This document shows positions 30,642-36,667 of a stretch of 44,849 bases of DNA, piece after piece. The notes beneath the pieces were generated by a model that saw nothing but the letters and a program-made list of their open reading frames with translations, was not told the DNA's origin and ran no database searches. The stretch's first letter is position 1; each line of letters starts with the position of its first letter. Source of the DNA: Nitrospiria bacterium (GTDB lineage Bacteria; Nitrospirota; Nitrospiria; JACQBZ01); assembly GCA_035498035.1 (NCBI GenBank), contig DATKAN010000060.1, forward strand, positions 1 through 44,849, given 5' to 3'. Made by a program: the position numbers and the translations under genes.

Positions 30642-30766
30642 GATCGGAAAGCACAAGGTCGGCTTTGATTATTATGAATATAGCGATCGCCGGAGAGAGA
30701 TCTTTCCGGCCCGGTCATAAGGATTTTGATTCCGGGATGAAAAAAAGATCAGGGGAGGGTTTCGAC

Positions 30767-31585
30767 ATGATGAATTATATTCGAATTGGAATTGCCGTTC
30801 TCGCGGCGGGGTTGATCGTGAGCGGCTGCGTCAGCTCGGGAAAGTACAAAAAGCTAGAGACGGATAAGAACCAGGAGATCTCCGCCCTCCAGCAGGAAAA
30901 AGCCGCGGCGGAGAAGGACAACGCCGACCTGAAGCAGCAGGTCGCTTCGCTCGAGCAGCAGAAAGCGGCGGCGGAGCAAGAGGTCGGGTCCTTGCAACAG
31001 CAAAAATCGGCCGTGGAGACGCAGAAGTCCGCGGCGGAGCAGCAGGTGGGTTCCCTTCAGCAGCAGAACGCCTCGCTGATCGCGGCCAGCCGGCAGCAAC
31101 AGCAGCAGTACCAGTCGCTGGTGAATACACTGTCGAGCGAGGTGCAGAAGGGGCAGGTCCAGGTGAAGCAGTACCAGAACATGCTGACGGTCGAGCTGGC
31201 GGAGCAGGTCTTTTTCGATTCCGGCCGTGCGACGCTCAAACCGGAGGGCCAGAAGGTCTTGAAGGATGTCGGCGAGGCCTTGAAAGGCTTCCCCGACAAG
31301 ATCATTCGGGTCGTGGGCCATACGGACAACAAGGCGATCAAAAAATCCCTTCAGGCCACCTTCCCGTCGAATTGGGAGCTGTCCGTGGCCCGCGCCACCA
31401 CCGTCGTACGCTTCCTGCAAAAAATCGGCGTCCCACCCGAGGATATGATCGCCTCCGGAAGGGCCGAATACCAACCCATCGCGCCCAACGACACGCCGGA
31501 GAATCGCCAGAAGAACCGGCGGATCGAGATCATGCTGATCGATAAAAATCTGCTGAGCGAGATGAGCGTGATCAGTCACGATTGA
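30767..31585 (+). CDS. OmpA-family peptidoglycan-associated lipoprotein, paralogue 1
   Basis: 272 residues from ATG 30767, supported by AGGGGAGGG 7 bases upstream; an in-frame ATG at 30665 would place the lipobox too far in. The signal peptide ends with lipobox VSGC, lipidated Cys21. Residues ~28-140 are a Gln/Glu/Ala-rich coiled coil built from repeats such as SLQQQK and AAEQQVGSLQQQN. The C-terminal OmpA domain has VFFDSGRATLKPEG, VGHTDN and RQKNRRIEI. It should tether the outer membrane to peptidoglycan. It is 60-70% similar by eye to the protein at 33869, but paralogue 1 has a longer Gln-rich spacer. Confidence 0.92.
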   Translation: MMNYIRIGIAVLAAGLIVSGCVSSGKYKKLETDKNQEISALQQEKAAAEKDNADLKQQVASLEQQKAAAEQEVGSLQQQKSAVETQKSAAEQQVGSLQQQNASLIAASRQQQQQYQSLVNTLSSEVQKGQVQVKQYQNMLTVELAEQVFFDSGRATLKPEGQKVLKDVGEALKGFPDKIIRVVGHTDNKAIKKSLQATFPSNWELSVARATTVVRFLQKIGVPPEDMIASGRAEYQPIAPNDTPENRQKNRRIEIMLIDKNLLSEMSVISHD

Positions 31586-31899: not shown

Positions 31900-32328
31900 A
31901 TGAGCACGCTGGACCGTGCGATACAGATCGCCGTCAAGGCGCACCGCGGGCAGGAGTACGAGCCCGGGGTCCCGTACGTGCTTCACCCGCTTCGGGTGAT
32001 GTTCCGGATGCGGACGGACGAGGAGCGGACGGTGGCGATTCTGCATGACGTGGTCGAGCAAACCGATTGGTCGCTGAAGGATCTGCGGAAGGAGGGCTTC
32101 AGCCGCGCGGTCGTCCAGGCGGTCGATCATCTCTCCCGTCGCAAGGGCGAGTCGTACGACGATTTCATCGGGCGGATCCTTCCGCATCCGCTGGCCCGGC
32201 GGGTGAAACGGGCCGACCTGTCGGACAACATCGAGCAGTGCCGGGGTCCCCGGCCCACCGCGAAAGACCGGAAGCGGATCGCCAAATATAAGGCGGCACT
32301 GGCGCGATTGGCCACGGCGCATCGGTGA
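31900..32328 (+). CDS. Small HD-domain hydrolase (SpoT/MESH1-like)
   Basis: 142 residues. HD-domain metal and catalytic residues are visible in order: AVKAHRGQ, YVLHPLRV, AILHDVVEQT (the HD pair), and KRADLSDNIEQC. This order matches the ppGpp hydrolase domain of RelA/SpoT and its stand-alone form MESH1/SAH. There is no synthetase, TGS or ACT domain. If active it would hydrolyse (p)ppGpp or a similar nucleotide. It lies between dyad repeats, in a spacer-rich section flanked by two OmpA-like paralogues, suggesting an inserted single gene. No convincing ribosome-binding site is seen. Confidence 0.8.
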   Translation: MSTLDRAIQIAVKAHRGQEYEPGVPYVLHPLRVMFRMRTDEERTVAILHDVVEQTDWSLKDLRKEGFSRAVVQAVDHLSRRKGESYDDFIGRILPHPLARRVKRADLSDNIEQCRGPRPTAKDRKRIAKYKAALARLATAHR

Positions 32329-32340
32329 CGGGATGAATTT

Positions 32341-32364
32341 GTAGGGGCGTACGGCCGTACGCCC
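32341..32364. repeat. GTAGGGGC dyad, truncated right arm
   Basis: GTAGGGGCGTACGG followed by CCGTACGCCC; the terminal CTAC arm is missing. The same core, with GTAGAAGC at its left end, recurs at 33689-33712. Confidence 0.8.
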
Positions 32365-32410
32365 GGATTTGAAGAGGCAGGTCCCCATGCCTGCCCGATT
32401 ATCATGATTC

Positions 32411-32470
32411 GTAGGGCCGGGCCCGTGGGCCCGCCCGCATTCGTAGGGGCACGGCATGCCGTGCCCCTAC
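32411..32470. repeat. Two adjacent GTAGGGGC-family dyads
   Basis: A degenerate GTAGGGCCGGGCCC...GGGCCCGCCC element (32411-32436) is followed by a perfect 28-bp dyad at 32443-32470 (GTAGGGGCACGGCA and its mirror). A short AGGCAGG...CCTGCCC hairpin lies just before, at about 32375-32397. They fill the 244-base gap before the YhcG gene. Confidence 0.8.
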
Positions 32471-32572
32471 AAAAAGATAATCGACGAATTTCGCGGGGGC
32501 GGAGGCCGTCGCGCGGGGGGCGGAAGGAAAACGTAATTGGATAAATCTTCGGTGGTGGTATAGGGTGACTCT

Positions 32573-33652
32573 TTGAAGCGGAGATTAAATCGTTTATTGA
32601 CAAAGCAAGGGACGGCTTCTCCCGCGCCGGTTCCCGAAAAACTATTGGAAGACCTTCGTTCGCTCATTCAGGCGGCACGTAACCAAGCGGCTCAAGCCGT
32701 CAACGCAGGGCTTGTGATACTTTACTGGAGCGTCGGACAGCGAATTCGGACGGACATCCTGCAGAAGAAACGCGCGGAGTACGGCGAAGAAATTGTCTCG
32801 ACGCTGTCGGGAAAATTAACGCCCGAGTTCGGAGGCGGGTTTTCCAGGCCGAATCTCTTTCGAATGATCCAATTTGCGGAGGTTTTCCCCGCCCTTGAAA
32901 TTGTCTCGACGCTGTCGAGACAATTGGGCTGGAGTCATTTCGTCGAAATCATTCCGCTGAAGGAGCCTCTCCAGCGGGAATTTTATGCCGAGATGTGCCG
33001 GATCGAACGCTGGAGCGTCCGCACACTGAGAGAGAAAATCAACGGGATGCTTTATGAGCGAACGGCCCTATCGAAGAAACCGGCCAAACTCGCCGAGATG
33101 GAACTCCGGCAACTCCGCGAGAAGGATCAGCTCACCCCGGACCTCGTTTTTCGCGACCCTTACCTCCTGGATTTCCTCGGCTTGAAGGATACCTACAGCG
33201 AGAAAGACGTTGAAGCCGCGATCTTGAGGGAGATGGAGGCTTTTATTCTAGAACTGGGAGCGGGGTTCACCTTTGTGGCCCGTCAAAAGAGAATTACCGT
33301 GGGGGATGTAGATTACTACCTTGATCTGCTATTCTATCATCGCAAACTGCGGCGATTGGTTGCCATCGAATTAAAGCTGGGCAAATTTCAGCCCGCCGAC
33401 AAGGGACAGATGGAACTGTACCTCCGCTGGCTGGAACGGCATGAACAACAAAAGGGTGAAGAATACCCGATCGGACTCATTTTATGCGCCGGAAAATCCA
33501 CCGAACAGGTCGAGCTCCTGCAACTGGAAAAAAGCGGCATCCGGGTAGCGGAATATCTCACCGGGCTTCCTCCCCGAAAGCTCTTGGAGAAAAAACTTCA
33601 TGAGGCCATCCGGCATGCTCGACGGGAACTGGAAAGCAAGGAGGCGGAATAG
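32573..33652 (+). CDS. YhcG/DUF1016 family PD-(D/E)xK nuclease
   Basis: 359 residues. The N-terminal DUF1016 domain (about 20-190) includes LYWSVGQRI, GGGFSRPNLFRMIQFAEVFP and RQLGWSHFVEIIPLK. The C-terminal PD-(D/E)xK nuclease has Asp251 in YYLDLLFYH and E266-L-K268 in VAIELKLGKF, then a Gln-containing helix. Family members are linked to phage defence, recombination or mobile elements, but a biochemical role is not settled. The coding sequence contains a 27-bp palindrome at 32899-32925 and a 21-base repeat of its left part 108 bases upstream, both encoding EIVSTLS. It stands alone between repeat-filled spacers, suggesting acquisition. Confidence 0.9.
   Translation: MKRRLNRLLTKQGTASPAPVPEKLLEDLRSLIQAARNQAAQAVNAGLVILYWSVGQRIRTDILQKKRAEYGEEIVSTLSGKLTPEFGGGFSRPNLFRMIQFAEVFPALEIVSTLSRQLGWSHFVEIIPLKEPLQREFYAEMCRIERWSVRTLREKINGMLYERTALSKKPAKLAEMELRQLREKDQLTPDLVFRDPYLLDFLGLKDTYSEKDVEAAILREMEAFILELGAGFTFVARQKRITVGDVDYYLDLLFYHRKLRRLVAIELKLGKFQPADKGQMELYLRWLERHEQQKGEEYPIGLILCAGKSTEQVELLQLEKSGIRVAEYLTGLPPRKLLEKKLHEAIRHARRELESKEAE
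32789..32925. repeat. In-gene direct repeat plus 27-bp palindrome within YhcG
   Basis: GAAATTGTCTCGACGCTGTC plus a following G occurs at 32789-32809 and again at 32897-32917, exactly 36 codons apart. At the second site it extends into a perfect inverted repeat: AATTGTCTCGA (32899-32909), loop CGCTG, TCGAGACAATT (32915-32925). Confidence 0.9.
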
Positions 33653-33688
33653 CGAAGGGGGGGGTCGTGACGGCACGTGGGTTGACTT

Positions 33689-33790
33689 GTAGAAGCGTAC
33701 GGCCGTACGCCCGGGCATACGAATCCGTAGGGGCGAACCCTTGTATTCCCCCGCATCCGAATCCGTAGGGGCAGGTCCCCGTGCTTTCCC
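33689..33790. repeat. Decayed GTAGGGGC-family elements
   Basis: A dyad core GCGTACGGCCGTACGC lies in 33689-33712, then GTAGGGGCGAACCC (33727-33740) and GTAGGGGCAGGTCCCC (33765-33780), each missing its mirror arm. They form most of the 216-base gap between YhcG and the second OmpA-like gene. Confidence 0.7.
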
Positions 33791-33868
33791 GGTATTTGCG
33801 TTTGTACGCTGGAATTCGCGATTTAATCGTCCTGAACATATCGTACGGGCAAAAAAGGAGGTACCGAC

Positions 33869-34684
33869 GTGAAAAATTATCTTTTTATCGGCCTCACCGT
33901 TCTGGCGGCGGGGATGATCGTGGGCGGGTGCGCCGGCTCGGAAAAATATAAAAAGCTAGAAACGGAAAAGAACCAGGAAATCGCGGCGCTCCGGCAGGAA
34001 AAAAGCGTGCTCGAGCAGCAGAATACCGCGCTCGAAAAGGACGTCGCCGATCAGAAGCGGCAGACGGCGGCGGCGGAACAGCGGGCCGCGGCCATGGAAC
34101 AGCAGAATGCGGCGGCGATCCGTGAGGCGAAGCAACTTGAGATTGATAAGGCCCATCTGATCGCGGCAGCCCGGGGGCAGCAGCAGGAGTACCAGAAGCT
34201 GCTGACCGGACTGTCGAGCGAGGTGCAGAAGGGCGAGCTCGAGCTGAAACAGTACAAGAACATGCTGACGGTCGATCTGGCGGACCAGGTCTTCTTCGAT
34301 TCCGGCCGCGCGACGCTCAAGCCGGAGGGGAAGAGGGTCCTCAAGAAACTGGGCGAGGCCTTGAAAGGTTACAACGATAAGATCATCCGGGTGGTGGGCC
34401 ATACCGACAACAAGCCGGTGCCCAAGTCCCTGCATGCGACCTTCCCGTCGAACTGGGAGCTGTCGGTTCTCCGGGCGACCACCGTGGTTCGTATACTTCA
34501 GGAGGCCGGGGTCCCCCCGGAATCGATGATCGCCTCCGGACGGGGCGAATACGAACCGACGGCCTCGAACAATACGGCCGAAGGACGCCAGAAGAACCGG
34601 CGGATCGCCATCATGCTGTACGATAAGAAGCTGGTCAACGAGTTGACGGAAACGCCGGCCGAGCCCGCGGTCGAGACAAAATGA
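33869..34684 (+). CDS. OmpA-family peptidoglycan-associated lipoprotein, paralogue 2
   Basis: 271 residues from GTG 33869, with AGGAGGT about 7 bases upstream. Signal peptide and lipobox VGGC, Cys21, align with paralogue 1, as do YKKLET and KNQEI just after it. A Gln/Ala/Glu-rich coiled coil spans ~30-135. The OmpA domain has VFFDSGRATLKPEGKRV, VGHTDNKPVPKSLHATF and EGRQKNRRIAIML. The near-identical domain order and conserved GLSSEVQKGE/STLSSEVQKG spacer show a duplication. The two copies flank the HD and YhcG genes. It probably anchors outer membrane to peptidoglycan. Confidence 0.92.
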   Translation: MKNYLFIGLTVLAAGMIVGGCAGSEKYKKLETEKNQEIAALRQEKSVLEQQNTALEKDVADQKRQTAAAEQRAAAMEQQNAAAIREAKQLEIDKAHLIAAARGQQQEYQKLLTGLSSEVQKGELELKQYKNMLTVDLADQVFFDSGRATLKPEGKRVLKKLGEALKGYNDKIIRVVGHTDNKPVPKSLHATFPSNWELSVLRATTVVRILQEAGVPPESMIASGRGEYEPTASNNTAEGRQKNRRIAIMLYDKKLVNELTETPAEPAVETK

Positions 34685-35152: not shown

Positions 35153-36667
35153 ATGAGGCGGGCTGACTTGAAAGAGAAACTCTCCATGGCGGTGATGGCA
35201 GCCGCGTTCCTGGCCGTGGGCTCGGGTTGTGCTGGTTCCCGGCCTGCGCCGACGGAGGCCATGAAACACGACGAGGCCGGAGCGAAGCTCCGGCATCAAG
35301 GGGATCTCGAAGGTTCGATTACAGAGTATCGCGAGGCCCTTCGCCTGGATCCGAACGATGCAGAGGCCCACTTCAATCTCGGAGTCGTACTCCGCAAAAA
35401 GGGGGATCTGGATGGAGCGACGGAAGAGTTGCAAACCGCGCTTCGTCTCAACCCGAACAATTCAGCCGCTCACTATCATCTCGGGGCCGTGCGAGGCGAC
35501 AAAGGAGATGTCGTTGGCGCGATGGCGGAGTTCCGTACGGCCATTCGCCTGAACCCAAATTACGCAAACGGCCACATGGGTCTCGGGTCGACGCTTGCGA
35601 ACCAAGGAGATCTCGAAGGTGCCATGGCGGAGTACCGGACGGCGGTTCGCTTGGCTCCCAACGATTCATTTGGTCACAACGGTCTCGGAAATGTGCTCAT
35701 GGGCAAAGGGGATTTCGACGGCGCGACCAAAGAGTATGAGACCGCCCTTCGGCTAAATCCGAACGATACCTACTCGCACGATGGCCTCGGGGCCGTGCTG
35801 GCGCGCAAAAGGGATCTGGATGGGGCGATGGCGGAGTTCCGCGCGGCCATCCGCCTGAACCCGAGTGATGGATACGGGCACGACGGACTCGGCAATGTGC
35901 TGGCGGATAAAGGGGACCTGGATGGCGCGATTGCGGAATTCCGGACGGCCATTCGCCTGAATCCGAAGGATGACCAGGCTCACACCAATCTCGGGGTTGC
36001 CCTTAACGGCAAGGGGGATCTTGATGGCGCCATTGCGGAACACCGCGCCGCAATCGGCATCGATCCGGGCAATTCGATCGCGCACTTCAATTTGGGCATT
36101 GCACTGCTTAACAAGGGGAAACTTGATGAATCGATAACCGAGGACCGCACCGCCATACGGCTGAACCCGAATTTTGAAATGGCTCATTTTGATTTGGGAG
36201 TCGCACTCTTTCGGAAAGGGGACCTCAACGGGGCTATTTCCGAGTATCTCTATGCCCTTCGCCTGGATCCGAACGACCTAAAAGCGCACACCAATCTTGG
36301 GGCTGCGTTCCATTTCAAGGGGGATTTGGAGGGGGCGATCGCGGAATACAGAACAGCCATTCGCTTGAACCCGAATGAAATTAATCCCCACATGGATCTG
36401 GGGGCCGTGTTTTACAGCAAAGGAGATTTTGAGGAAGCCATTAAGGAGTACCGCGTCGCGCTTGGCCTGAATCCGAACAATGCGCAGGCCCACTATGTTC
36501 TCGCGATGGCGCTCATGGGTCAGAAAAACGCGTCCGAAGCAGAAAAAGAGATCAGAGAGTTTGAAAGGCTGGCTCCGGATTCGCCGACCAAGCGCCAAAT
36601 GATCGATCAAGCCAAGCGATGGCTTGACACGATCGGTGCACCCGGAGGGCGAGGCGGGAACCTCTAA
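35153..36667 (+). CDS. TPR-repeat protein, probable lipoprotein, 13 TPRs
   Basis: 504 residues. The N-terminal signal ends AVGSGC, with a loose lipobox at Cys26 (Gly instead of Leu/Val/Ile at -3), so it is exported and possibly lipidated. Residues ~37-478 are 13 consecutive 34-residue tetratricopeptide units with consensus AH.NLG..L..KGDLDGAI.EYRTAIRLNPN; the last one is degenerate. The regular KGDLDGA phase and no spacer between units point to expansion by tandem duplication. TPR solenoids bind partner peptides; the partner is unknown. It could be the periplasmic assembly partner of the neighbouring lipoproteins, but nothing in the sequence proves it. Confidence 0.9.
   Translation: MRRADLKEKLSMAVMAAAFLAVGSGCAGSRPAPTEAMKHDEAGAKLRHQGDLEGSITEYREALRLDPNDAEAHFNLGVVLRKKGDLDGATEELQTALRLNPNNSAAHYHLGAVRGDKGDVVGAMAEFRTAIRLNPNYANGHMGLGSTLANQGDLEGAMAEYRTAVRLAPNDSFGHNGLGNVLMGKGDFDGATKEYETALRLNPNDTYSHDGLGAVLARKRDLDGAMAEFRAAIRLNPSDGYGHDGLGNVLADKGDLDGAIAEFRTAIRLNPKDDQAHTNLGVALNGKGDLDGAIAEHRAAIGIDPGNSIAHFNLGIALLNKGKLDESITEDRTAIRLNPNFEMAHFDLGVALFRKGDLNGAISEYLYALRLDPNDLKAHTNLGAAFHFKGDLEGAIAEYRTAIRLNPNEINPHMDLGAVFYSKGDFEEAIKEYRVALGLNPNNAQAHYVLAMALMGQKNASEAEKEIREFERLAPDSPTKRQMIDQAKRWLDTIGAPGGRGGNL

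Follow-up and report, generated by a model that had tools for sequence, protein, structure and literature searches.

A palindrome inside the reading frame of a Nitrospiria DUF1016/YhcG gene covaries with predicted recognition helices and is a probable binding site of the encoded protein

The window, that is the whole stretch of DNA analysed, comprises 44,849 nucleotides of a Nitrospiria bacterium and contains a gene of the DUF1016/YhcG family (Table 1). In Pfam, the encoded protein matched both family domains above their cut-offs, PF17761 (DUF1016_N) with E=2e-47 and 161 bits against a cut-off of 32.8, and PF06250 (YhcG_C) with E=5e-47 and 160 bits against a cut-off of 32.5. The PADLOC match of the gene was PDC-S02 (E=5e-131). 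For DUF1016 proteins, Kosinski et al. 2005 (PMC1189080) had predicted a nuclease domain as well as an N-domain that is mostly helical and had no role assigned. Among 58 sequences, residues E214, E227, D251, K268 and Q279 of the PDDEXK domain were invariant and residue 266 was always E or D; together with a fold match to NucS/EndoMS nucleases, this conservation indicates that the catalytic residues are intact, and the nuclease domain looks active. A PDB sequence search with the protein returned no match. The AlphaFold2 model, of moderate confidence (pLDDT 74.5 overall, mostly 82-91 in the N-domain blocks), placed helices at residues 69-86, 92-104, 108-115, 120-126 and 149-157.

Table 1. Positions of the DUF1016/YhcG gene, its two palindromic sites and the predicted protein features in the window
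Feature	Position	Strand	Description	Basis
DUF1016/YhcG gene (predicted)	32573..33652	+	ORF of 359 aa, TTG start as listed	
Site 1	32791..32817	.	imperfect palindrome, codons 73-82, encodes the helix preceding recognition helix 1	
Recognition helix 1 codons (predicted)	32846..32884	+	residues 92-104; coupled residues 92, 93, 96, 97	AlphaFold2 model and coupling to pairs 8-22, 9-21, 10-20
Site 2	32899..32925	.	perfect 27-bp palindrome, codons 109-118, encodes helix 108-115, the first of the second predicted helix-turn-helix	
Recognition helix 2 codons (predicted)	32930..32956	+	residues 120-128; coupled residues 121, 124, 125, 128	AlphaFold2 model and coupling to pairs 9-21 to 12-18
Helix 149-157 codons	33017..33043	+	residue 149 coupled to innermost stem pairs	model and coupling
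PDDEXK nuclease domain	33146..33598	+	residues 192-342	

Two similar OmpA-like lipoprotein genes (30665-31585 and 33869-34684) lie on either side of a stretch with the DUF1016 gene and, at 31900-32328, an HD-domain-like gene, which suggests a duplication, or an insertion between the copies. A long tetratricopeptide-repeat protein gene lies downstream (35153-36667). REP-like repeats (TTGTAGGGGCGTACGGCCGTACGCCC, CGTAGGGGCACGGCATGCCGTGCCCCTAC and variants) were observed on both sides of the DUF1016 gene (32335-32474 and 33687-33791) and are unrelated to the palindrome within it. When a sister species was compared, the region was absent at high identity and no empty site was found.

Site 2 reads AATTGTCTCGA-CGCTG-TCGAGACAATT (full palindrome, AATTGTCTCGACGCTGTCGAGACAATT), with arms of 12 bp that are 100% complementary. 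A 21-base partial copy of it, GAAATTGTCTCGACGCTGTCG, is present exactly at 32789-32809, 108 bp or 36 codons upstream, and EIVSTLS is encoded in frame by both. The palindrome and half copy that the sequence-only reading had pointed out in a YhcG gene are thus both in place and in frame. With up to 3 mismatches, AATTGTCTCGACGCTG was counted 3 times in the window, where 0.36 occurrences were expected, and 0 shuffles reached 3. At the variable base pairs, site 1 was closer to site 2 of the same gene than to that of other genes (0.653 vs 0.430, 0/2000 shuffles), and on this sequence comparison the predicted specificity is common to the two sites. An inner-palindrome scan of viral contigs yielded 120 stretches, and a DUF1016 relative (E<=1e-3) was encoded in none of the 80 that were checked, indicating that palindromes this short arise by chance too; searches of viral contigs for DUF1016 relatives also found none.

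For comparison, a codon alignment was made with 80 relatives of at most 74% identity from Nitrospirota, Planctomycetota, Elusimicrobiota, Verrucomicrobiota, Acidobacteriota, Proteobacteria, archaea and others, and the pairing and covariation statistics were taken over 87 aligned genes. The arms of site 2 paired at 10.06 of 11 positions, compared with 7.58 +/- 0.13 when arms were swapped between genes, and those of site 1 at 8.97 compared with 6.82. The covariation score was 0.516 against 0.149 after shuffling (0/500). Site 2 reads, for example, AATTGTCGTGACATTGTCACGACAATT, AATTGTGCAGACACTGTCTGCACAATT, ATTGTGTCCGCACTGCGGACACAAT or ATTTTGCAGGCGGTGCCTGCAAAAT in relatives, and the encoded peptides vary in step (VVTLSRQL, VQTLSAQL, VSALRTQL, LQAVPAKL). 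Other palindromes in the aligned genes were nearly all at sites 1 and 2. Judged by these alignments, the palindrome is selected, beyond chance. This bears out the earlier proposal of a selected nucleotide-level feature, both through arm covariation and through synonymous codons that covary rather than vary freely across genomes; the segment does recur in other DUF1016 proteins, and nearly all relatives have the palindrome. The conservation of the sequence itself that had been expected was not found: palindromy is kept, and the sequence diversifies along with the recognition residues described below.

Compensatory pairing is therefore present in the stem, and a dyad read by a dimer predicts such pairing equally. 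After the covariation result, the palindrome was first read as an RNA or single-strand hairpin, in which the mRNA stem-loop itself acts by controlling translation or decay. The perfect stems with 3-nt loops, covariation that fits a covariance model, and the extra palindromes no more than about 300 bp away from the gene agree with such a hairpin. G-U was in modest excess over A-C on the sense strand, an excess confounded by codon positions and not clear outside the codon-constrained ones. Against the hairpin, an Rfam search gave no match. A hairpin recognised by its shape also predicts no code between stem bases and protein residues, and it was the residue-to-base code presented below, in which stem bases are coupled to helix-turn-helix faces and tracked by synonymous codons, that led to the hairpin being set aside for a DNA dyad. 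We now regard the hairpin as improbable.

The palindrome was found at the same codons in members of 35-45% identity, in the second DUF1016 gene of the same genome (GTTTGTGCAGCAGGTTGCTGCACAAAT), and in Burkholderia, Pseudomonas, Segatella, Spirosoma, Glaesserella, Pseudanabaena, Arthrobacter, Hymenobacter and Rhodococcus, so that the distant carriers belong to Proteobacteria, Bacteroidota, Actinomycetota and Cyanobacteriota. Shorter or imperfect versions were observed in Chryseobacterium, Rickettsiales, Deinococcus and Wolbachia phage WO. E. coli K-12 yhcG, whose own palindrome is AAAGATTTGGCAGACGCTGTCTGCCAAATCTTT, has 3 in-frame palindromes, one of them with arms of 15 bp, and a fourth immediately past the stop codon; across E. 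coli alleles a G-to-C change in this fourth palindrome is compensated by a C-to-G change. Truncated and deleted alleles of E. coli yhcG were also observed (L266, L267, L273). Two truncations end at nt 385 and 406, within the third palindrome (gene nt 378-410; L265 6205-6237), and a deletion with ends in or next to palindromes takes out palindromes 2 and 3. These ends could result from cleavage, slippage or IS-mediated events.

Searches of the 2.67 Mb genome with up to 3 mismatches found no match to site 2 beyond sites 1 and 2, and no match to the palindrome of the second DUF1016 gene outside that gene. The palindrome covariance model likewise hit only sites 1 and 2 in this genome, and over 296 genomes of the phylum it gave matches in 30, nearly all within DUF1016 genes. 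A few matches lay outside recognisable DUF1016 genes (G130:C20, G017:C14, G177:C1, G205:C109 and G049:C52; L258, L246, L252, L255 and L263). The sequence-only reading had also considered a mobile insertion kept in frame. A mobile repeat resembling REP or Rickettsia palindromes could account for the several palindromes in and just past E. coli yhcG and for the upstream arrays at some loci, but the codon position is fixed family-wide, the many dispersed copies per genome that mark such repeats were absent from this genome, and the matches over the 296 genomes were nearly confined to one gene family. REP-like dispersal was rejected on the covariance-model searches of this genome and of the 296 genomes, and a mobile element is the least probable of the explanations considered.

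To relate the stem to the protein, about 55,000 residue pairs were scanned, and the strongest couplings clustered around residues 92-97 and 112-128. The outermost variable stem pair (8-22) was coupled to residues 93, 96 and 92, pair 9-21 to residues 128 and 97, pair 10-20 to residues 125 and 97, pair 11-19 to residues 124 and 121, and the innermost pair (12-18) to residues 121 and 149. The coupling thus runs from outside to inside along the stem and matches the order of the residues in space. In the AlphaFold2 model residues 92 and 120-121 are where helices begin, and the residues that show coupling are found at these beginnings and along a single face of helices 92-104 and 120-126, a modelled placement as in recognition helices. 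Several of the pairings are chemically sensible, with Arg97 or Arg93 found with G and Glu125 with C:G. Site 1 was weakly coupled and gave no clear signal in the tree test.

Synonymous codons within the palindrome also tracked the predicted reader residues. A TCN codon for Ser115 was accompanied by Ser121 in 41/41 cases and an AGY codon by Thr121 and Arg124 in 7/7 (p=1e-8 for TCN/AGY against Ser/Thr121, uncorrected for relatedness). For Arg116, CGN codons went with Pro128 (26/27) and Arg97 (25/27), and AGR codons with Tyr128 (13/16) and His97 (12/15); the association of CGN/AGR with Pro/Tyr128 gave p=5e-8, uncorrected for relatedness. The codon of Ser79 in site 1, 36 codons off, predicted residue 121 (p=1.5e-7, again uncorrected for relatedness). 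Since synonymous codons track the reader residues, the signal is carried by nucleotides and not by amino-acid packing; as one side of every base pair is non-synonymous, this lessens packing effects and does not wholly remove them.

Relatedness was addressed with a tree made from alignment columns other than those of residues 68-159. On this tree a base pair and its reader residue shifted together in 4.9/5, 5.9/6, 4.9/5, 5.2/7, 6.9/8, 6.2/8, 7.0/8 and 4.2/6 independent pairs and never in the opposite way, while control residues changed the same way in about 0.1-1.1 of 5-8 independent pairs; the number of independent pairs per test was small (3-8). The Ser115 codon switch was represented by 3 well-supported independent pairs, all concordant. 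In a nearest-pair test, residues 124, 121 and 149 outranked the rest of the 204 positions for stem pair 11-19, and the test was weaker for pairs 8-22 and 12-18. The code extends, on lists of distant DUF1016 members read by eye, to Ser121/Val149 with inner GAC..GTC, Thr121/Thr149 with CGC..GCG, Arg or Lys149 mostly with ACC..GGT, and Gly/Phe/Tyr121 plus Arg149 with CA...TG.

Correlations of this kind might also come from amino-acid packing or cassette exchange, with no reading of DNA, because the palindrome-encoded helix probably packs on the helix that follows it, and exchange could move the segment as one block. Palindromy, however, is not an amino-acid property, the synonymous codons track the residues, and the code follows a regular order. 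Residues 84, 88, 104, 130, 132 and 154, which are equally variable and lie in the same stretch, showed no coupling to the stem, and such uncoupled neighbours count against block exchange. Packing or exchange is accordingly rated as quite improbable, slightly below the hairpin.

On the coevolving residue-base code, the earlier suggestion that the palindrome is a binding site for the gene's own protein fits best, and the encoded protein very probably binds the palindrome in its own gene. The cognacy of this site is deduced from coevolution, and the site is unique in the genome. The palindrome would be a double-stranded DNA site lying within the reading frame, between the two codon stretches for the reader helices. 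The all-helical N-terminal domain would form a homodimer in which each monomer contributes two helix-turn-helix units; in each half site the outer variable base pairs would be read by helix 92-104 and the inner ones by helix 120-128, the variable pairs lying between AATT ends and a centre that are both conserved. Binding to the two sites, which are separated by 108 bp and both lie in the gene's first third, would then most likely block the gene's own transcription and hold a potentially harmful nuclease low until a presumed trigger arrives. A dyad that is read by a helix-turn-helix protein and found only in its own gene fits an autogenous operator, and a nuclease domain that looks active and NucS/EndoMS-like makes tight control plausible. 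Whether autorepression would be the main role of binding is judged, from the sequence evidence, to be evenly balanced. The explanation as a whole, an own-gene dyad read by a homodimeric N-domain that most likely represses the gene, is considered the probable one.

Additional palindromes of the same architecture were observed next to the genes, at 0.655/kb within 300 bp upstream compared with 0.02-0.03/kb further out, with up to four in a row at some loci. Examples upstream of DUF1016 genes are an array in L218 (1570-1730) and palindromes in L205 (1030-1130) and L226 (3893-3921), the last with matching specificity. In the relatives tested, flanking palindromes did not match the specificity of the adjacent gene (0.332 vs 0.333), and by eye the exceptions with a matching flanking palindrome were L226, the E. 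coli 3' site, Segatella and Pseudanabaena. Inspection against paralogues in the same genomes revealed no clear pattern. The flanking palindromes may serve other DUF1016 proteins, and since most of them are mismatched, simple autorepression does not account for them.

Flanking palindromes of mostly other specificities are expected if DUF1016 genes occupy each other's sites, which agrees with a second reading of the bound site, in which a site-specific nuclease binds the palindrome as its own address in order to cut or nick (homing, element turnover, rival exclusion or suicidal cleavage) and not to regulate. The intact catalytic residues, the uniqueness of the palindrome in the genome, and the occurrence of the family on plasmids, near integrases, in conjugation operons, in phage WO and in type I restriction operons are consistent with it, as are the two E. 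coli yhcG truncations that end within the third palindrome. However, the site for the gene's own product is preserved intact within it, so that a brake on cleavage would be needed, and palindromes are deletion-prone anyway, with one of the truncations adjoining IS1. We consider cutting or nicking at the gene's own address unlikely compared with regulation. It is likewise only tentatively suggested that DUF1016 genes are self-addressed elements, each bearing in frame, between the codons of its recognition helices, the DNA address on which its nuclease acts, and that the foreign addresses around them record competition or mutual targeting among such elements; if true, these elements would be a kind of self-targeting nuclease system not described before. 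As to their wider setting, DUF1016 genes were also observed within type I restriction-modification operons, where in Aeromonas the genes overlap, or beside DNA methyltransferase genes (L288, L277, L281, L285).

Under the preferred reading, an operator-like site bound by the gene's own product, the residue-to-base code would allow much of the DUF1016 family to be matched to a predicted DNA target from sequence alone. Nearly every member would gain such a target, in bacteria, archaea, plasmids and phages, with PDC-S02 as a defence candidate and yhcG of E. coli K-12 among them, and a site inside the gene itself makes the function of YhcG, cutting or regulating, directly testable. It would also be a case of a protein sequence evolving to preserve a nucleotide pattern, which would mislead coevolution-based contact prediction. 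In the literature searched on DUF1016/YhcG (COG4804, PDC-S02), which lay outside most subscription journals, no palindrome, binding site or code was found described.

Several known systems share parts of the proposed arrangement. In autoregulated type II toxin-antitoxin pairs and the control proteins of restriction-modification systems, a dimeric helix-turn-helix protein on a dyad controls a toxic activity, but unlike in DUF1016 the operators are in promoters and the regulator is usually a separate protein or domain partner. The lac O2 and gal OI sites are intragenic operators, with the repressor site inside a coding sequence as is proposed here; theirs lie in target genes, whereas that of DUF1016 lies in its own gene, and we know of no family-wide coevolution of operators of this type with the repressor. 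Rickettsia palindromic elements are palindromes within reading frames (PMC4316617); they are dispersed, about 100-150 nt long and found in many genes, whereas the DUF1016 palindrome belongs to one family, is fixed in position and matches its reader. The likeness to I-TevI and related intron homing endonucleases lies in a nuclease bound near its own gene at a target-like site and repressing itself, I-TevI doing so from an operator resembling its own target (PMC2988022) and the DUF1016 protein by proposal. I-TevI is a GIY-YIG nuclease and DUF1016 a PDDEXK one, and the operator of I-TevI is upstream, over the promoter and single, whereas the DUF1016 site is in the reading frame, family-wide and palindromic, and coevolves with its predicted reader.
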